From Desulfoferula mesophila (GTDB lineage: Bacteria > Desulfobacterota > Desulfarculia > Desulfarculales > Desulfarculaceae), in the NCBI RefSeq assembly GCF_037076455.1, contig NZ_AP028679.1, positions 2,805,501-2,869,500 on the forward strand: a DNA stretch of 64,000 bases. Direction: 5' to 3'. The notes under the pieces are model-generated. The model saw only the letters and a list, made by a program, of their open reading frames with translations, ran no database searches and was not told where the DNA came from. A program made the translations under genes and the position numbers. Positions 26,688-35,926 of the stretch are shown in pieces (positions within the stretch are counted from its first letter, which is position 1; every line of letters starts with the position of its first letter).

Positions 26688-26716
26688 TTGACCCCGTAGG
26701 AGTCAACATAATATGA
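26688..26716 (+). promoter_or_regulatory. Candidate promoter and dyad upstream of the CRP/FNR gene
   Basis: TTGACC (26688-26693) is followed 17 bases later by ATATGA (26711-26716), with TAATAT overlapping. The -35 is also the left arm of a dyad, TTGAC-N9-GTCAA (26688-26706), which could let the regulator control its own gene. Confidence 0.45.
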
Positions 26717-26776
26717 TTTGGTAGGAATTTGGTCCTTGGCCCAAAGTGGCCCGACTCTCTGGCGGAAAACGAATCT

Positions 26777-27505
26777 ATGCCTGACAGCGTACCCACAGCC
26801 GACCCCAAAGGCGAACAGGTGGACAGCCCCCTGGAGGCTCGGATCGAGCTGTTCCAAGACGCCATGGGCTTCAGCGGCATCCCCCGCCAAGGCCTCCGCA
26901 AGCTGGCCGCCTTGGCCAGCCTGCGGCGCTTTTGCAAGGGGCAAATGGTTTTCGAGCAAGACCAGCCCTGCGACCATTTTCATCTGGTGGCCTCGGGCTT
27001 GGTCAAGGTCTACATATGCTCGGCCAGCGGCTCCCGCATGACCTACCTCTTGGCCCGGCGGGGCGAGCCCCTGAACCTCATCGGCCCCTTTACCGGCGAC
27101 CCCCGCTTTTTGTGCGCCGAGGCCATGCAGACCACCGAGGTGGCCCACATCCCCCGGCAGGACTTCGTGCGCTTCGTGGCCGAACACCCCGTCTTGTTCA
27201 GCAACATAATGGCCATTTTGAGCAAGGCGGTGGACAGCGCCAACAGCCGGCTCATCGACATGGTGGACAAGAAGGTGGAAGAGCGCCTGCTCCGGGTGCT
27301 ACTGACCCTGCTGGACAAATTCGGCTCGGAGATCAAGCTGACCAGCACGGAGTTGGCCGAGCTGGCCGGGACCACGGTGGAGACCACCCTGCGCACCATG
27401 GCCCGCCTGCGCAGCTTGGGCATCATCTCATCGGAGCGGGGCCAGATAACCATTATTCGCCCCACCTCCCTGAAAAATCCCGAACGCCTGCCCCTTTGGG
27501 TATAA
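26777..27505 (+). CDS. CRP/FNR family transcriptional regulator
   Basis: A 242-residue regulator: cyclic-nucleotide-binding-like beta-roll (residues ~20-140), long dimer helix, and a winged helix-turn-helix near the C-terminus (TSTELAELAGTTVETTLRTM). The recognition helix TVETTLR keeps the Glu and Arg of FNR's TVETISR, while FNR's Ser is Leu. There is no FNR-type N-terminal cysteine cluster, and the residues of a cAMP pocket are not evident, so the effector is unknown. Start taken at the ATG; a TTG at 26729 with a nearby TAGGAA is an alternative. It lies directly upstream of the TRAP/molybdenum hydroxylase operon and probably controls it. Confidence 0.88.
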   Translation: MPDSVPTADPKGEQVDSPLEARIELFQDAMGFSGIPRQGLRKLAALASLRRFCKGQMVFEQDQPCDHFHLVASGLVKVYICSASGSRMTYLLARRGEPLNLIGPFTGDPRFLCAEAMQTTEVAHIPRQDFVRFVAEHPVLFSNIMAILSKAVDSANSRLIDMVDKKVEERLLRVLLTLLDKFGSEIKLTSTELAELAGTTVETTLRTMARLRSLGIISSERGQITIIRPTSLKNPERLPLWV

Positions 27506-27534: not shown

Positions 27535-27578
27535 TATGACGGCGGTCATACAAAAGCCGCCCTCTGGCCGCCTACAAT
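27535..27578 (+). promoter_or_regulatory. Candidate CRP/FNR-type operator and class II promoter of the TRAP operon
   Basis: TATGAC-GGCG-GTCATA (27535-27550) is a perfect 16-bp dyad with the geometry of FNR sites. A good -10, TACAAT, lies at 27573-27578 with no -35. With a start near 27585 the dyad is centred about 42 bases upstream, the class II activator position. The site is 30 bases past the stop of the CRP/FNR gene. A leader of about 200 bases then runs to dctP. Confidence 0.65.
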
Positions 27579-27791
27579 ACGATGCACACCCAAGGCACGA
27601 CATAATTTCAACACAACTTTGCTGGGCCAGAACGAAGCACGGGCGGTCCGCCGCGTAGCAGGCCTCCCGGAATCGCAAACACCCGACTAGTGGCGTTTTG
27701 CCGTTTTCCACGGCCCCACCCCGCGGGCCTGTGATCTGTTCCCAAGCAACCGTGACGGCTACCAAGCCGTCGCAACCCAAGGGAGGGAATT

Positions 27792-28817
27792 ATGTCGAAG
27801 AAACTTTTGGTGTTGACCTTGCTCGTGGCCCTGGGTGCCTTTTTCTCCGTCGCCCCGGCGCCCGCATCGGCCGAGGAGGTGGTCAAACTGACCTACTCCT
27901 GCTTCTTTCCGCCCACCCACGTCCAATCCAAACTGGCCGCGGCTTGGTGCAAGGAAGTGGAAAAGCGCACCAAGGGCAAGGTCAAGATCGAATACTACCC
28001 CGGCCAGACCCTGACCAAGGCCAAACAGGTCTATGACGGCACGGTGCAGGGCATGAGCGACCTGGGCTTCTGCCTGTTCGCCTACAACCGGGGCCGCTTT
28101 CCTCTCATGGAGGTGGTGGACCTGCCCCTGGGCTACACCAGCGGCATGACCGCCACCCTGGTGGCCAACGCGGTCTACGAGAAGTTCAAGCCCAAGGAGC
28201 TGGATGACGTGCAGGTGATGTATCTGCATGCCCATGGGCCGGGCCTGCTGCACACCAAGGACAAGGCCGTCCATAAGATGGAAGACATCAAGGGCCTGAA
28301 GATCCGGGCCCACGGCACCACCGCCAAGGTGGTCGAGGCCCTGGGCGGCACCCCGGTGGCCATGCCCATGCCCGAGCTGTACCAGGCCCTGCAACGCGGC
28401 GTGGTGGACGGCGCCATGTACCCGGTGGAGACCAACAAGGGCTGGCGCATGGCCGACGTGGTCAAGTATTGCACCGAGAACTATTCCAACGCCTACACCT
28501 CCACCTTCTACATTGTGATGAACAAGGGCAAGTGGAACGCCCTGCCCAAGGACGTGCAGGAGATCATCATCCAGATCAACAAGGAATGGATCCCCAAGCA
28601 CGGCGCCGCCTGGGACGAGTCGGACAAGGAGGGCCGCGAGTTCATGCTCAAGAAGGGGCGCAAGTTCATCGCGCTCACCCCGGAGGAGGCCGCGCGCTGG
28701 AAAAAGGCCACCGATCCGGTCTTGGCCTTCTACGTCAAGGAGACCACCCCCAAGGGCGTGCCCGCCCAAGAGGCGCTCGTGTTCACCCAAAAGAAGCTGG
28801 CCGAGTTGAGCAAGTAG
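27792..28817 (+). CDS. dctP: TRAP transporter substrate-binding protein DctP
   Basis: Periplasmic binding protein of a tripartite ATP-independent transporter, 341 residues. The signal peptide is 1-27 (ending APASA). The conserved Arg that binds the substrate carboxylate is expected at Arg172 in LKIRAHG, followed by the GVVDGAMYP segment typical of the family. The substrate is therefore an organic acid; which one is not readable from sequence. GGGAGG precedes the start. It heads the import, CoA-ligase and molybdenum hydroxylase operon. Confidence 0.93.
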   Translation: MSKKLLVLTLLVALGAFFSVAPAPASAEEVVKLTYSCFFPPTHVQSKLAAAWCKEVEKRTKGKVKIEYYPGQTLTKAKQVYDGTVQGMSDLGFCLFAYNRGRFPLMEVVDLPLGYTSGMTATLVANAVYEKFKPKELDDVQVMYLHAHGPGLLHTKDKAVHKMEDIKGLKIRAHGTTAKVVEALGGTPVAMPMPELYQALQRGVVDGAMYPVETNKGWRMADVVKYCTENYSNAYTSTFYIVMNKGKWNALPKDVQEIIIQINKEWIPKHGAAWDESDKEGREFMLKKGRKFIALTPEEAARWKKATDPVLAFYVKETTPKGVPAQEALVFTQKKLAELSK

Positions 28818-28874: not shown

Positions 28875-29360
28875 TTGGATTCCTGGGTATCGCTGGTTAC
28901 CAAGCTCATAAACGTACTCAAGCGCCTGGGTGGCGCGGCCATGGTCGGCATGATGGTGGTCACCTGCGTGGACGTCATCTTCCGCGGCTTCAACCGCCCC
29001 ATCTTCGGGGCGGTGGAGGTGGTCAGCTTCATGGCCACCCTGGTGCTGGCCTGCGCCATGCCGCTGACCGAGATGGAAAACGGCCATGTTGGGGTGGACC
29101 TGTTCATCCGCCACCTCAGCCCTCGGGGCCAGGCCTGGTTCGACGCCGTAACCAAGCTGCTCAGCGGCAGCCTGTTCGGCCTGGTGTGCTGGCAAATGTG
29201 GCTCTACGGCAACACGGTAAAGGAAACCGGGGAGGTTTCCATGAGCCTGCAGTTCCCCGACTACATCCTCATCTACATAGTGTCGGTGGCTTTCGGGGTC
29301 TTGAGCCTGGTCATCCTTACCGAGTGCCTCATAAACCTGAGAAAGGCTGGTGCGCGATGA
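28875..29360 (+). CDS. dctQ: TRAP transporter small membrane subunit DctQ
   Basis: A 161-residue protein with four predicted transmembrane segments and the DctQ-type FRGFNRPIFGAVEVV and MPLTEMENGHVGVD segments. It pairs with DctM in the inner membrane. Start is TTG with GGGAGG 6 bases upstream. Its stop overlaps the dctM start by 4 bases (ATGA), which indicates coupled translation. Confidence 0.92.
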   Translation: MDSWVSLVTKLINVLKRLGGAAMVGMMVVTCVDVIFRGFNRPIFGAVEVVSFMATLVLACAMPLTEMENGHVGVDLFIRHLSPRGQAWFDAVTKLLSGSLFGLVCWQMWLYGNTVKETGEVSMSLQFPDYILIYIVSVAFGVLSLVILTECLINLRKAGAR

Positions 29361-30658
29361 GTCCCACCCTGTTGGGCATAATCGGCATCCTGGCCTTGAT
29401 GGTGATCATTTTCACCCGCATGCCGGTGGCCTACGTGATGACCCTGGTGGGCTTCGTGGGCTTCGCCGCCCAGGTAAGCCCCGAGGCGGCCCTCAAGCTG
29501 TTGTCCCGCGACTTCTACAGCGTCTACTCTTCCTACGGCTTGACCATCATCCCCCTGTTCATCCTCATGGGCCAGATCGCCTTCAACGCGGGCATCAGCC
29601 ACCGCCTGTACGATTCGGCCCACATGATGGTGGGCTGCTACCGGGGCGGCCTGGCCACGGCCACGGTGTGCGCCTGCACCGCCTTTGGCGCGGTGTGCGG
29701 CTCCTCGCCGGCCACGGCGGCCACCATGGCCACGGTGGGCCTGCCGGAGATGAAGCGCTACGGCTACGCCGACGAGCTGGCCACCGGCTCGGTGGCGGCC
29801 GGAGGCTCCCTGGGCATGCTCATGCCCCCCAGCGTGGTGCTCATCGTCTACGGCATCCTCACCGAGCAGTCCATCGGCGCCCTGTTCGTAGCGGGCATCG
29901 TTCCGGCGGTGTTCATGACCATGCTCTTCGCGCTGGCCGTCTACGTCTACTGCCTCATCTCCCCCAAACAGGGGCCGGCCTGTCAGTTCTACCCCTGGAG
30001 CCAGAGGCTCAAGTCCCTGGTGCACACCATGGACATCATGCTGGTGTTCGTGGTGGTGATGCTGGGGCTGTTCCTGGGCTGGTTCACCCCCACCGAGGCG
30101 GGCGGGGTGGGCGCGGCGGCGGTGACCTTGGTGGCGCTGATCAGAAGGCAGCTCACCTGGGCCGGCTTCGTGAAAAGCCTCTATGAAACCCTCCGCACCT
30201 CCTGCATGGTCCTTTTGCTGGTGGCCGGGGCCACGGTGTTCGGCCACTTCCTGGCCGTGACCCGCATCACCTTCGACGTGGCCAACTGGGTCGCGGCCAT
30301 GGACCTGCCGGGGTATGCGGTGGTGGCCATGATCGTGCTGGTCTACCTCATCGGCGGCTGCTTTATCGACGCGCTGGCCCTCATCATGCTGACCATTCCC
30401 ATCTTCTATCCCATCATCCTGGACCTTGGTTACGACCCCATCTGGTTCGGGATCATCATCGTCCTGGTGACCCAAATGGGGGTGATCACCCCGCCGGTGG
30501 GCATCAACGTCTACGTGGTCAACGGAATCGCCGGCGACGTGCCGCTCGAGAAAATCTTCAAGGGCGCCCTGCCCTTCCTGTTAGCCCTTATCGTGGGCAC
30601 CGCCCTGATCGTGATGTTCCCCCAGATAGCCCTTTTACTGCCCACCCTGATGTATTAA
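29357..30658 (+). CDS. dctM: TRAP transporter large permease DctM
   Basis: A 433-residue permease with about 12 hydrophobic segments that carries out sodium- or proton-driven uptake of the acid delivered by DctP. Family segments include GFAAQVSPEAALKLL, the glycine-rich GAVCGSSPATAATM in the first transport repeat, and TPPVGINVYV near the C-terminus. The start overlaps the dctQ stop; an in-frame extension upstream is inside dctQ and is not real. The CoA ligase gene follows after 10 bases. Confidence 0.93.
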   Translation: MSPTLLGIIGILALMVIIFTRMPVAYVMTLVGFVGFAAQVSPEAALKLLSRDFYSVYSSYGLTIIPLFILMGQIAFNAGISHRLYDSAHMMVGCYRGGLATATVCACTAFGAVCGSSPATAATMATVGLPEMKRYGYADELATGSVAAGGSLGMLMPPSVVLIVYGILTEQSIGALFVAGIVPAVFMTMLFALAVYVYCLISPKQGPACQFYPWSQRLKSLVHTMDIMLVFVVVMLGLFLGWFTPTEAGGVGAAAVTLVALIRRQLTWAGFVKSLYETLRTSCMVLLLVAGATVFGHFLAVTRITFDVANWVAAMDLPGYAVVAMIVLVYLIGGCFIDALALIMLTIPIFYPIILDLGYDPIWFGIIIVLVTQMGVITPPVGINVYVVNGIAGDVPLEKIFKGALPFLLALIVGTALIVMFPQIALLLPTLMY

Positions 30659-30668
30659 GAGGCTGCCG

Positions 30669-32006
30669 ATGACTACCCTGGCAAGCAACTATTGGAACCC
30701 CTACCTGGAAACCATGGCCCCGGAGGAGTTGCGGCGGCTGCAGTTGGAGAAATTTCAACGCATCATCGCCTGGGCCTATGAGCGCTCGCCCTTTTACCGG
30801 GAGCTCTACTCCCAGGCGGGCCTGGAACCGGGGGACATAAAGACCTGGCAGGACGTGCGCCGGGTGCCCACGGTGGACAAGGGCATGCTCAAGTCGGCCC
30901 AGGAGGCTCAGCCCTTCCCCTATGGCAGCCGTCTCTGCGTGCCCCTGGAGCAGGTGGCGGAGTTCCGCCAGACCTCGGGCACCACCGGCACCCCGGTGTA
31001 CCAGGCCGACACCTGGCAGGACTGGGAGTGGTGGTCCGAGTGCTGGTCCTACATCCTCTGGGCCCAGGGCTACCGCGCCACCGACCGGGTGTTCATCCCC
31101 TTTGGCTACAACATCTTCGTGGCCTTTTGGGCCGGGCACTACGCGGCCGAGAAACTGGGCTGCGAGGTGGTGCCCGGCGGGGTGCTGGACACCGCCTCCA
31201 GGGTGCTCAAAATAAAGGAGCTGCAGGCCACCGCCCTCATGGGCACCCCCACCTACATGCTCAACATGGCCGACGTGGCCAAGAACCGCCTGGGCATCGA
31301 TCCGGCGGGCTTGGCCATCAAGCGCATCACCTGCGCCGGGGAGCCGGGGGCCAGCCTGCCCAGCACCAAAAAGCGCATGGAAGAGGCCTGGGGAGCCAAG
31401 GTCTTCGACCACGCCGGAGCCACCGAGATCGGGGCCTGGAGCTACGAATGCACCGCCCAGTGCGGCGGCATCCACGCCAACGAGGGCATGTTCCTGGTGG
31501 AGATAGAGGACCCGATGACCGGCGAGATCATCGAGGAACCAGGCCGCAAGGGCAAGATGATAATCACCGCCCTGGACCGCCTGGCCCAGCCCTGCCTGCG
31601 CTTTGACAGCAAGGACATCATCGAGTGGGCCGCCGAGCCCTGCCCCTGCGGGCGCACCTACCGCATCATCAAGGGCGGGGTCCAGGGAAGAGCCGACGAC
31701 ATCACCAAGGTCAAGGGCGTGCTGCTGTCGCCCTCGGCCATCGAGGAGGTGGTGCGGGGCTTCGACGAGCTGGCCGATGAATACGAGGTGGTGGTGGAGC
31801 GCATCGGCGACAATGACAAGATCACCCTCAAGGTGGAGTTCAACCCCGGCGCCCAAGCGACGGAGCAGGAAGTTTTGGGCCGCCTCAAGGATCAACTGCG
31901 CCTGAAGACCAACCTGGGGTATCAGATCGAGGTCCATCCCCTGGGCAGCCTGACCCGCTACGAGGTCAAGGCCCGGCGCTTCAAGGACACGCGGCATTTG
32001 CACTAA
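30669..32006 (+). CDS. Acyl/aryl-CoA ligase, phenylacetate-CoA ligase (PaaK) family
   Basis: A 445-residue AMP-forming ligase that activates a carboxylic acid with ATP and CoA. The P-loop-like motif TSGTTGTP is near residue 103, the adenylate-binding AGATEIG near 250, and the C-terminal lid ends TRYEVKARRF with a probable catalytic Lys. The SPFYRE and CPCGRTY segments are typical of PaaK-like enzymes, which favour aromatic acids. Its place between a TRAP importer and a molybdenum hydroxylase suggests that the imported acid is made into a CoA thioester before hydroxylation or dehydroxylation. The exact substrate is unknown. Confidence 0.9.
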   Translation: MTTLASNYWNPYLETMAPEELRRLQLEKFQRIIAWAYERSPFYRELYSQAGLEPGDIKTWQDVRRVPTVDKGMLKSAQEAQPFPYGSRLCVPLEQVAEFRQTSGTTGTPVYQADTWQDWEWWSECWSYILWAQGYRATDRVFIPFGYNIFVAFWAGHYAAEKLGCEVVPGGVLDTASRVLKIKELQATALMGTPTYMLNMADVAKNRLGIDPAGLAIKRITCAGEPGASLPSTKKRMEEAWGAKVFDHAGATEIGAWSYECTAQCGGIHANEGMFLVEIEDPMTGEIIEEPGRKGKMIITALDRLAQPCLRFDSKDIIEWAAEPCPCGRTYRIIKGGVQGRADDITKVKGVLLSPSAIEEVVRGFDELADEYEVVVERIGDNDKITLKVEFNPGAQATEQEVLGRLKDQLRLKTNLGYQIEVHPLGSLTRYEVKARRFKDTRHLH

Positions 32007-32022: not shown

Positions 32023-32208
32023 ATGGAGCCGAACAAAGTCGAAGATCTGCGCCGGCGTCTGCGGACCCTGCGCGACCAGACGCGGGAACTACAGCAAGCG
32101 GCCGGCGATTTTCCGGCCCTGGCGCGCAACACCTCGCGCATCCAAGCCAGCTTGACCATGATCGCCATCGACCTGGGCATGGCGCAGGAAGGACGAGGGG
32201 AATACTGA
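32023..32208 (+). CDS. 61-residue helical protein of unknown function
   Basis: I do not recognise this protein. It is 61 residues, highly charged and helical in its first half (NKVEDLRRRLRTLRDQTRE), then more hydrophobic (SLTMIAIDLGMA). GGGAGA lies 9 bases upstream of the ATG. Its stop is shared with the start of the FAD subunit (TGATG), so it is translationally coupled to the molybdenum hydroxylase. It has no signal peptide and no cysteine. It could be an accessory or assembly factor. Confidence 0.7.
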   Translation: MEPNKVEDLRRRLRTLRDQTRELQQAAGDFPALARNTSRIQASLTMIAIDLGMAQEGRGEY

Positions 32209-33095
32209 TGCTGCTGCCTGCTTTTGAATACTACCGCCCCCAAAGCCTGGCCGAGGCCATTACCCTGCTGGGTGAAATGGGCGAGGCGGCCCGGCCCCTG
32301 GCCGGAGGCACCGACCTTCTGGTCAACCTCAAGCTCAAGAAGCTGGCCCCCAAGGCCTTGTTGGACCTCAGCGGTCTGGCGGAGCTCCAGGGCCTGGCCC
32401 AGGAAAACGGCAAGGTGAGCCTGGGCGCCTTGAACACCGCTTCCCGCCTGGCCGTGGGCTCGCCCCAGGTGCCCAGGGTGCTGTCGATGGGGGCCGGGGC
32501 CCTGGGTTCGCCCCAGGTGCGCAACCGGGCCACCCTGGGCGGCAACCTGGTAACCGCGCGCCCGGCGGCGGACATCTGTCTTCCCCTGCTGGCCTTGGGG
32601 GCCCAGGCGGTTTTGGCCGGGCCCGGCGGAACCCGCGAGGTTCCCCTGGACGGCTATTTCAAGGGACCCGGCTACACCGTAAAGGAGCCGGGCGAAATCC
32701 TCACCAAGGTGCTCCTGGAGGCTCCCCGCCCCGGCGTGGGCGGCGGCTACCAGAAGCTTGGCCTTCGCCAGGCGATGGAGATTGCGCTGGTGAACGTTGC
32801 GGCGGTGGTGATGCTGGAGGACGACGGGTCCACCATCAAGGAGGCCCGGGTGGCCCTGGGGGCGGTGGCTCCCACTCCCCTGCTCTCTCCGGGCGCGGCC
32901 CAGGCGCTGGCCGGCCAGTCGGCCGACGAGGCGGCCATCGAGGCGGCGGCGGAGGCGGCGGCGGCCGACGCCAAACCCATCGACGATCACCGGGGCTCGG
33001 CGGCCTACCGCCGGGACATGGTGCGTACCCTGACCAAGCGGGCCCTGAAGCAGGCCCTGGCCCAGGCCCAAGGCAACGAGGAGGCGCAAGCATGA
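32208..33095 (+). CDS. Molybdenum hydroxylase FAD-binding subunit (CoxM/HcrB type)
   Basis: The 295-residue flavin subunit of a xanthine oxidase family enzyme. FAD-binding segments are LAGGTDLLVNLK (near residue 32) and NRATLGGNL (near 106). It contains a single cysteine, so the extra [4Fe-4S] loop found in the FAD subunit of 4-hydroxybenzoyl-CoA reductase is missing. The stop overlaps the next start by 4 bases (ATGA). It passes electrons between the iron-sulfur subunit and an external carrier. Confidence 0.93.
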   Translation: MLLPAFEYYRPQSLAEAITLLGEMGEAARPLAGGTDLLVNLKLKKLAPKALLDLSGLAELQGLAQENGKVSLGALNTASRLAVGSPQVPRVLSMGAGALGSPQVRNRATLGGNLVTARPAADICLPLLALGAQAVLAGPGGTREVPLDGYFKGPGYTVKEPGEILTKVLLEAPRPGVGGGYQKLGLRQAMEIALVNVAAVVMLEDDGSTIKEARVALGAVAPTPLLSPGAAQALAGQSADEAAIEAAAEAAAADAKPIDDHRGSAAYRRDMVRTLTKRALKQALAQAQGNEEAQA

Positions 33096-33568
33096 GCAAG
33101 CAAGCCATCACTCTTACGGTAAACGGCGTGGTGCGCCAGGCGTTGGTGGAGCCCAACCAGACCCTCACCTCCCTGCTGCGCGACGAGCTGGGGCTCACCG
33201 GCACCAAGCACGGCTGCGGGGTGGGCGACTGCGGCTGCTGCACGGTGATCCTGGACGGCGAGACGGTCAATTCCTGCCTGGTGCTGGCGCTGCAGGCCCA
33301 GGGCCGGGAGGTGCTGACCATCGAGGGGCTGGCCAGCGGCGGCGAGCTGCATCCCTTGCAGCGGGCCTTTGTGGACGCCGGGGCCATCCAGTGCGGCTTT
33401 TGCACCCCGGGCATGATCCTTTCGGCCAAGGCGCTGCTGGACGTTATCCCGCAGCCCAGCCGGGAGGAGATCACCAAGGGCCTTTCAGGCAACCTGTGCC
33501 GCTGCACCGGGTATGAAAAGATCGTGGAGGCGGTGAGTGACGCCGCCGCCAAGATGAGCGAGGCGTAG
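33092..33568 (+). CDS. Molybdenum hydroxylase [2Fe-2S] subunit (CoxS/HcrC type)
   Basis: A 158-residue iron-sulfur subunit with two [2Fe-2S] clusters. The N-terminal plant-type cluster is in CGVGDCGCC with a fourth Cys shortly after (NSCL). The second cluster is in CGFCTPG and CRCTGY. It carries electrons between the molybdopterin site and FAD. Overlaps the FAD gene by 4 bases; the large subunit follows after 3 bases. Confidence 0.96.
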   Translation: MSKQAITLTVNGVVRQALVEPNQTLTSLLRDELGLTGTKHGCGVGDCGCCTVILDGETVNSCLVLALQAQGREVLTIEGLASGGELHPLQRAFVDAGAIQCGFCTPGMILSAKALLDVIPQPSREEITKGLSGNLCRCTGYEKIVEAVSDAAAKMSEA

Positions 33569-33571
33569 ATC

Positions 33572-35926
33572 ATGAGCGGCAACTTCTCGGTAATCGGAGG
33601 CCGGGCGGCCCGCAAGGACGCCCCCGACAAGTCCACGGGCAAGGCCCGCTACATCGAGGACCTCAAATTCGTAGGCGAGCTGGCCGGGGCCATGCTGCAA
33701 TCCAGCCAGGCCCACGCCAAGATCAAGAGCATCGACATTTCCAAAGCCCAGGCTTTGCCCGGGGTGGTGGCGGTGATCACCGCCCAGGACGTGCCGGACA
33801 TCAAGTACGGGGTGTCGCCGGCCCGCTACGACGAGAATCTTTTCGCCAAGGACCGGGTGCGCTACGTGGGCGACGAGATCGCCGCGGTGGCCGCCGAGGA
33901 TCTGGCCACCGCGCTCAAGGCGGTGGAGCTGATCGAGGTGGAGTACGAGCCCCTGCCGGTGCTGCTCACGGTGGAGGAGGCCATGGCCGAGGGGGCTCCC
34001 TGGATCCACGACGAATTTCCCGACAACGTCTGCGCCAAGGTGGAGCAGGAGTTTGGCGACGTGGAGGCGGCCTTCGCCGAGTGCGACATCATCCAGGAGG
34101 GCAGTTTTTATTCCAAGCGTCAGGACGGGGCCTTTATCGAGCCCAACCAGTGCGTGGCCCTGGTGGACTCTGACGGGGTGCTCAACCTGCACAGCTCCAC
34201 CCAGGTGCCCCACTACGTGCAGCGCACCGTGGCCATGGTCACCGGCCTGGGCATGAGCCGGGTGCGGGTGGCCAAGCCCTACGTGGGCGGCGGCTTCGGC
34301 CCCAAGGCCTCGGCCACCCCCATCGAGCTGGCCTCGAGCTTTTTGGCCATCAAGACCGGGCGTCCGGTGCGCATGGCCTACACCAGGGAGCAGGTGTTTC
34401 TTTTCAGCCGGGCCCGCCACGGCTTCACCCACCACATGAAGCTGGGGGCCAAGAAGGACGGCACCCTGATGGCCCTGGACCACCAGGCCACGCTGGAGGG
34501 CGGGGCCTACTCCTCCTTCGGCATCGCCACGGTTTACTACGCCGGCTCTCTCTTGGGCGGCCCCTACAAGCTGCCCAACATGCGCTACCAGGGCCAGCGC
34601 ATCTACACCAACAAGCCCGCCTGCGGGGCCCAGCGGGGCCACGGCGGGGTTATCGCCCGGGGTCTTTTCGAGCAGCAGCTGGACCTGGTGGCCGAGAAGC
34701 TGGGCATGGACCCCATCGAGCTTCGCCTGAAGAACATGATGGAGACCGGGGACGTTACTTGCAACGACCTGGCCATGAGCAGCCTGGGCATGCGCGAGTG
34801 TTTGGAGGCGGTGAAAACCGGCTCCGGCTGGGCGGAGAAAAAGGGCAAGCTGCCGCCGGGCAAGGGCATCGGCGTGGCCTGCGGCTTCTTCGTCTCCGGC
34901 GCGGGTTATCCCATCTATCGCAGCGACACCTATCACTGCACCATCATCATCAAGGCCGACGAGGACGGCGGGGGCATTTTGCTCTACACCGCCTCGGCCG
35001 AGATCGGCCAGGGCTCTGAGACCACCATGGCCATGATCGCCGCCGAGGCGGTGGGCATCGACTACGAGCAGGTGCGGGTCAAGAGCGGCGACACCGACTT
35101 CGGCATCGACCTGGGGGCCTATTCCTCGCGCACCACCCTGATGACCGGCCACGCCGCCAAGGAGGCGGGGGAAAACCTCAAGGCCATGATTCTGGAGACC
35201 CTGGCCCAGGAGCTGGGCATCGAGCAGAGCCGCCTGGACATCAAGGAGGGCCGGATCAAGATCAGCGGCGATCCGGTGGACTTCAGCGCCATCCGCACGG
35301 GCTACATCAAGGAGCACCGCGGCTGGCCGGACCCGCCGGAGGGCGACGAGCTGACCTTCCGCGAGGCGGCGCGCCTGGCCTACCTGCGCCGGGGCACGGT
35401 GGTGGCCACGGGCAAGTACAAGCCTCCGGTCTTGGGCGGCAAGTACAAGGGCGCGGCGGTGGGCACCAGCCCGGCCTACGGCTGCTCGGCCCAGGTGGCC
35501 GAGGTGAGCGTGGACTTCGAGACGGGCCAGATCAAGGTGGAGCGCATCACGGACGCCCACGACTGCGGCCAGGCGGTGAACCTGACCAGCGTGGAGGCCC
35601 AGATGCAGGGCTCGGTGTCCATGGGCCTGGGCGAAGCGCTTTTCGAGGAGGTGAAATTCGACTCCCAGGGGCGCATCATCAATCCCAGCCTGGGCGAGTA
35701 CCACATCCCCACGGTGATGGACATGCCCGAGACCAAGTGCATCGTGGTGGAGTCGGGCGAGCCCAACGGGCCCTTCGGGGCCAAGGAGGTGGGCGAGGGA
35801 GCCATCATGCCCACCATCCCGGCCATCCTCAACGCGGTGCGCAACGCCACCGGCCTAGTGCTCGATGAAACCCCGCTGACCCCCGAACGCGTCTACCAGG
35901 CGTTTAAGAAACAGAAAGGGGCATGA
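33572..35926 (+). CDS. Molybdenum hydroxylase large molybdopterin subunit (CoxL/HcrA type)
   Basis: The 784-residue catalytic subunit of a xanthine oxidase family enzyme. VGGGFGPKAS and GAQRGHGG are the usual cofactor-binding segments, and the base Glu is expected at Glu742 in GEGAIMPT. It hydroxylates, or reductively dehydroxylates, a substrate at a Mo-pyranopterin cofactor. With the CoA ligase upstream the substrate is probably a CoA thioester. The absence of the [4Fe-4S] loop in the FAD subunit argues against classical 4-hydroxybenzoyl-CoA reductase. The stop overlaps the DUF2080 start (ATGA). Confidence 0.94.
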   Translation: MSGNFSVIGGRAARKDAPDKSTGKARYIEDLKFVGELAGAMLQSSQAHAKIKSIDISKAQALPGVVAVITAQDVPDIKYGVSPARYDENLFAKDRVRYVGDEIAAVAAEDLATALKAVELIEVEYEPLPVLLTVEEAMAEGAPWIHDEFPDNVCAKVEQEFGDVEAAFAECDIIQEGSFYSKRQDGAFIEPNQCVALVDSDGVLNLHSSTQVPHYVQRTVAMVTGLGMSRVRVAKPYVGGGFGPKASATPIELASSFLAIKTGRPVRMAYTREQVFLFSRARHGFTHHMKLGAKKDGTLMALDHQATLEGGAYSSFGIATVYYAGSLLGGPYKLPNMRYQGQRIYTNKPACGAQRGHGGVIARGLFEQQLDLVAEKLGMDPIELRLKNMMETGDVTCNDLAMSSLGMRECLEAVKTGSGWAEKKGKLPPGKGIGVACGFFVSGAGYPIYRSDTYHCTIIIKADEDGGGILLYTASAEIGQGSETTMAMIAAEAVGIDYEQVRVKSGDTDFGIDLGAYSSRTTLMTGHAAKEAGENLKAMILETLAQELGIEQSRLDIKEGRIKISGDPVDFSAIRTGYIKEHRGWPDPPEGDELTFREAARLAYLRRGTVVATGKYKPPVLGGKYKGAAVGTSPAYGCSAQVAEVSVDFETGQIKVERITDAHDCGQAVNLTSVEAQMQGSVSMGLGEALFEEVKFDSQGRIINPSLGEYHIPTVMDMPETKCIVVESGEPNGPFGAKEVGEGAIMPTIPAILNAVRNATGLVLDETPLTPERVYQAFKKQKGA

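Follow-up and report, generated by a model that had tools for sequence, protein, structure and literature searches.

A candidate class II operator joining a CRP/FNR-family regulator to a TRAP uptake and acid-activation operon in Desulfoferula mesophila

The locus described here raises the question of whether a short perfect inverted repeat, lying between a gene for a CRP/FNR-family regulator and an operon for TRAP transport and acid activation, is the site through which the one controls the other. The DNA analysed (64,000 nucleotides of the Desulfoferula mesophila genome, hereafter the window) contains the following relevant features.

26688-26717, plus strand: predicted sigma-70 promoter of the regulator gene, TTGACC (26688-26693), N18, TATGAT (26712-26717)
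26777-27505, plus strand: CRP/FNR-family regulator, 242 aa, recognition helix at 201-213 (VETTLR...)
27535-27550, no strand assigned: operator dyad TATGAC-GGCG-GTCATA, predicted class II activator site
27573-27578, plus strand: -10 element of dctP, TACAAT, 22 bp after the dyad; TA..AT stands there in all seven genus loci
27792-28817, plus strand: dctP, TRAP solute-binding protein (Pfam DctP, 2.3e-52)
28875-29360, plus strand: dctQ (Pfam DctQ, 2.6e-22)
29348-30658, plus strand: dctM (Pfam DctM, 3.2e-95)
30669-32006, plus strand: PaaK-like aryl/acyl-CoA ligase (TIGR02155, 2.1e-71)
32023-32208, plus strand: 61-aa ORF directly after the ligase, core AGDFPALxRNxxRIQASLxMI
32208-35926, plus strand: Mo hydroxylase of the xanthine dehydrogenase/4-hydroxybenzoyl-CoA reductase family, with FAD (32208-33095), 2Fe-2S (33092-33568) and Mo (33572-35926) subunits

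Conservation of the dyad with its regulator gene

The first-pass annotation of this DNA had drawn attention to the perfect dyad about 30 bases after a CRP/FNR-type gene, and the dyad is indeed present, 29 bp beyond the regulator stop codon (27503-27505). By itself such a dyad is weak evidence, because a perfect 6-N4-6 dyad of any sequence arises in 6.5% of shuffles of its own intergenic region and 45 of them exist in the window; its significance derives from its conservation among the genus genomes and not from the window alone. An ortholog of the regulator was found in seven of the eight genus genomes examined (61-86% identity to the protein of the window across the six others), and each of the seven has the orthologous dctP as the following gene (67-87% identity in the six others). 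The annotation had made its reading depend on whether the dyad is kept upstream of orthologous dctP genes, and it lies between the two genes in every one of the seven genomes that have the regulator.

When the seven intergenic sequences were aligned without gaps, anchored on the dyad, the only invariant columns were ATGAC..C.GTCAT and the TA..AT exactly 22 bp past the dyad, with none of 128 flanking columns invariant. At two loci (L008 and L009) the outermost pair of the dyad is altered on both arms, giving CATGAC...GTCATG, a symmetric change of the kind expected of a protein-bound palindrome. The dyad lies at a variable distance from the regulator stop codon (about 30 to 120 bp) but at a constant one from the -10 element, which ties it to the dctP promoter and not to the 3' end of the regulator gene.

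The eighth genus genome, in which our search found no ortholog of the regulator, has dctP-dctQ-dctM (dctP 79% identical) and lacks the dyad. The dyad is likewise missing from ten more dctP homologs that lack the regulator (54-73% identity, some of them paralogs from the same genus), so that its presence goes with that of the regulator gene. Regulator, dyad and a promoter without a -35 element have been kept together in related bacteria while the surrounding DNA has diverged.

Pattern searches of the 4.48 Mb genome found the exact TATGAC/GTCATA arms once. Four other matches to the 14-bp ATGAC-N4-GTCAT all lie inside open coding frames, as do five of the six one-mismatch matches examined (in frames of at least 150 aa; the sixth lies outside). 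As the extra matches mostly sit in open coding frames, no second regulon target is evident, and the operon beside the regulator is the single evident target of the switch. The description of regulator, site and operon as a self-contained unit appears apt, insofar as the dyad follows the regulator gene and has this one evident target.

The regulator, its promoters and its predicted target

The regulator matches the Pfam families cNMP_binding (PF00027, 1.7e-16) and HTH_Crp_2 (PF13545, 4.8e-12), both above gathering score, and its AF2 model (pLDDT 88) superimposes in structure comparison on GlxR and MtbCRP with Z of about 26 and rmsd of 1.6-1.8 over 215-218 aligned residues. Both domains together with the fold place it in the CRP/FNR superfamily. 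These solved relatives are generic CRP-family proteins only and do not indicate an effector; CprK and HcpR are not named among the matches listed (for CprK, phmmer at E<=1e-3).

CRP and FNR themselves were considered and rejected as identities for this protein. CRP has Arg180 paired with a TGTGA half-site; the present regulators have Val or Thr at the equivalent of Arg180 and the half-site is TATGA, and the score against the CRP model PRK11753 is 39 bits for a cut-off of 266. FNR has N-terminal cysteines that ligate a [4Fe-4S] cluster, whereas the regulator has no cysteine before residue 52 and none that is invariant among its orthologs, so that it is not an oxygen-sensing FNR by the Fe-S mechanism; in addition, Leu or Ile replaces Ser212, the operator is ATGAY rather than TTGAT, and the FNR model PRK11161 scores 37 bits for a cut-off of 228. 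The geometry that the annotation had ascribed to FNR is therefore that of CRP/FNR proteins in general, since the cysteines specific to FNR are absent.

If transcription of dctP starts 7 bp past the -10 hexamer, the start falls near 27585 and the dyad centre near -42.5, in agreement with the annotated TACAAT without a -35 element and a dyad centre about 42 bases upstream. In the window the best -35 match is 3/6; in all seven genus promoters it is 2-3/6 at spacers of 15-19, and none of the seven has a TGn extension of the -10 element. Judged from the predicted start, the promoter has the features of class II, in which the site is centred near -41.5, a -10 element is present and a -35 element is dispensable. 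The CprK dehalobox is centred at -41.5 (PMC7062800) and FF-41.5 serves as a class II test promoter for FNR (PMC4505428). Upstream of the regulator gene, by comparison, all seven genus orthologs have TTGACN-N17/18-TANNNT with a -35 match of 5-6/6. A second inverted repeat there, TTGACCCCGTAGGAGTCAA, was set aside as an operator; it is not conserved and coincides with the -35 region of the regulator promoter.

The predicted dctP leader is 207 nt long and has further conserved blocks, which make another promoter or leader control possible. One such block (window 27590-27660, GACATAAT.TCAACACAACTTTGC.GGGCCA) is conserved in the four closest genomes and could be a second promoter or a leader element; an Rfam scan found no known leader RNA at dctP.

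The target named by the annotation, a TRAP/Mo operon, requires partial correction. The dctPQM genes and the PaaK-like ligase (which scores below the PaaK cut-off, 240.7 against 646.3 bits for TIGR02155) follow the regulator in the window and at the six orthologous loci, but the Mo genes of the xanthine dehydrogenase family occur at five of the seven loci, the window counted, and are absent there in G001 and G006. Within the window the 61-aa ORF fills an apparent 200-bp gap between the ligase and the Mo genes. It gave no significant family in a Pfam search, homologs of it stand behind the ligase in other members of the genus and, on the minus strand at L065:6751-6948, in Desulfonema magnum, and neither promoter nor terminator was seen in the stretch that it occupies. 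The large subunit of the Mo hydroxylase scores nearest to 4-hydroxybenzoyl-CoA reductase, but the three subunits all score below the cut-offs for that enzyme (848.5/994.55 for TIGR03194, 127.5/404.55 for TIGR03195 and 179.5/257.8 for TIGR03193).

Two further observations concern neighbouring or paralogous genes. In G006 (L055:5922-9249, minus strand) the ligase is followed by a molybdoenzyme of the DMSO-reductase family and then by a 421-aa protein without a Pfam match, so that a different Mo enzyme appears to lie behind the same switch and transporter. Ahead of dctP paralogs of the genus and family, with 55-61% identity (L130, at G000:C1 ~342700-343000, minus strand, and L132, L133, L134, L135 and L129), there is a conserved tyrosine-rich ORF of 18-25 aa, for example MVSSASHSVRAYAYVYCYYYRPPRG; in the genus a weakly folded stretch rich in C and poor in G, ACTACCCCTACATAAACACCCATACCCCC, comes after it. 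Together they resemble a tnaC-like leader peptide and Rho-type attenuation site.

Proposed activation at the dyad and its alternatives

Computation yields a conserved dyad at a fixed spacing from a -10 element that lacks a -35 partner, dependent on the regulator gene and perfect at a single genomic site, and from these features we infer that the neighbouring regulator binds the dyad and is most probably a class II activator of the uptake and acid-activation operon. An ordinary sigma-70 promoter of its own would supply the regulator, which would bind a small-molecule effector; the likeliest candidate, in a guess modelled on CprK and HbaR, is the transported acid or the CoA ester of that acid. 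The effector-bound dimer would then occupy the dyad, centred near -42.5, and recruit RNA polymerase to a promoter that has a -10 but no -35 element. The transcript switched on would cover dctPQM and the CoA ligase and, in the window, also the small ORF and the Mo-hydroxylase genes. A constitutively made sensor acting on a promoter without a -35 element is the most economical reading of the locus, and the class II interpretation first put forward for it is, as far as comparative sequence analysis can speak to it, supported with the corrections given here.

Of the alternatives, the one that survives best is that the regulator, bound at the dyad, represses the promoter and is released by an inducer. 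The overlap of the dyad with the -35 region would also allow a bound dimer to keep polymerase out; none of the seven promoters, however, has a -35 element (at most 3/6), and the fixed 22 bp from dyad to -10 element is the geometry of class II CRP/FNR activators, so that we consider repression unlikely. More improbable still is that the dyad is read by another CRP/FNR protein, such as an HcpR-like paralog (TTGACNNNNGTCAA), which would make the operon part of a global regulon. TGAC-N4-GTCA is the published half-site of delta-proteobacterial HcpR (PMC1274295) and the genome has other, more distant CRP-family matches, but the perfect site is single in the genome with the other 14-bp matches in open coding frames, its presence tracks the adjacent regulator gene, and its outer base, A and not T, fits the helix type of that regulator. 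Finally, a terminator or processing hairpin at the 3' end of the regulator transcript, for which the position 29 bp past the stop codon and a possible perfect 6-bp stem might speak, can hardly be entertained, given that no T run follows the dyad, a plus-strand terminator scan found nothing there, Rfam gave no match, and it is the distance to the -10 element, not that to the stop codon, which is fixed.

Recognition residue, operator base and related systems

FNR reads its box, TTGATNNNNATCAA, through Glu209, Ser212 and Arg213 (PMC4505428), and Rodionov et al. correlated CRP positions 180 and 181 with half-site bases (PMC1274295). In the regulator of the window the recognition helix reads V-E-T-T-L-R, with Glu and Arg kept and Leu for the Ser of FNR, as the annotation had recognised; among the orthologs the Glu and Arg are invariant and the Ser is replaced by Leu or Ile. 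The annotation had further taken the Leu to fit the TGAC half-site. That link was misplaced, because regulators with Leu or Ile occur with both C and T as the final base of the half-site; moreover, a TGAC half-site was already known from the sites TTGACNNNNGTCAA described for HcpR in delta-proteobacteria (PMC1274295). The residue correlates instead with the outer position, where the distinctive trait of the site is A rather than T or G. Among regulators with an adjacent site, ATGA is found with Leu or Ile at the Ser212 position, and TTGA with Ser (helix PETLSR and similar). A Fisher test of residue against outer base, for sites chosen by hand and sequences that are related, gave p of ~1e-5, or 4e-4 when the genus enters as a single case; a Bacteroidales K-E-S-x-I-R group, in which the base is A or G, was excluded. 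With related sequences and few independent events, the correlation of Leu/Ile with an outer A may be regarded as indicative only.

Regulators of other families and phyla, 27-58% identical to that of the window, have a TATGAY-N4-RTCATA-like site nearby. In Dethiosulfatarculus (L010/L063) TATGATCCAGATCATA lies ahead of another TRAP operon; CATGACCGCTGTCATA precedes a dctP with 66% identity in G322 (L140), CATGATCTAGATCATA an ABC solute-binding gene in G105 (L141) and TATGACCGTCGTCATA a symporter-CoA ligase pair in Desulfonema magnum (L065), while in Desulforhopalus (L064) two matching sites stand upstream of a transporter-containing operon. Matching sites also occur near the regulators of a Desulfobacteraceae MAG (L068, TATGATCACCATCATA) and of two Omnitrophota (L066 and L070, TATGATCCACATCATG and TATGACACAGATCATA). 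No -10 element is evident at exactly 22 bp past the site in L010, L066 and L068. Eight more distant homologs of the same helix type (L142-L149) have no site adjoining the regulator, so that the pairing is common and not universal.

As a separate observation, a perfect GATGAT-N4-ATCATC dyad lies some 150-190 bp ahead of the aligned start in Bacteroidales CRP/FNR genes with the helix KESFIR (L079, L091, L097 and L110), which hints at autoregulation or at divergent targets.

The switch proposed here is comparable to several known systems. Like CprK/RdhK of Desulfitobacterium, which are effector-sensing, the regulator would be a local CRP/FNR-family activator of nearby genes with an N4 palindrome; the half-site is ATGAY instead of the dehalobox TTAAT-N4-ATTAA, and the target is uptake and a CoA ligase rather than a reductive dehalogenase. 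HbaR of Rhodopseudomonas palustris, a 4-hydroxybenzoate sensor whose paper is cited by title in PMC8547461, is a CRP/FNR member controlling anaerobic aromatic-acid genes of which a CoA ligase is the first, and the present regulator, beside an operon with a CoA ligase, may be likened to it by description. HcpR1 shares the TGAC-N4-GTCA core and the broad bacterial group (delta-proteobacteria) and is also without the FNR cysteines (PMC1274295), but the outer base of its site (TTGACNNNNGTCAA) is T whereas that of the present dyad is A in all seven genomes, the regulators of TTGAC sites found in our analysis have Ser and not Leu or Ile at the Ser212 position, and the evident target is not hcp, no hcp gene being recognised beside the regulator. 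With E. coli FNR it has in common the equivalents of Glu209 and Arg213, the N4 geometry and the predicted class II placement, and it differs in the lack of an N-terminal cysteine cluster, in Leu for Ser212 and in ATGAC for TTGAT. A literature search for the motif or the operon found no relevant paper. A local CRP/FNR class II switch is a mechanism of a type already known, of which this is, on good support, a new example.

For an uncharacterised operon of uptake and acid activation in anaerobic relatives of sulfate reducers, the analysis provides a precise candidate operator and a proposed unit of regulator, operator and promoter. More broadly, there is about an even chance that a widespread [VT]-E-x-x-[LI]-R branch of the family forms private uptake switches (TRAP, ABC and symporter) in Desulfobacterota and Omnitrophota, acting through ATGAY-N4-RTCAT, and that the residue at the Ser212 position sets the outer base (Ser with T, Leu or Ile with A). 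If true, this rule would extend the published residue-base code of the CRP/FNR family, and the sites of many unannotated CRP/FNR regulators might become predictable from a single residue of the helix.
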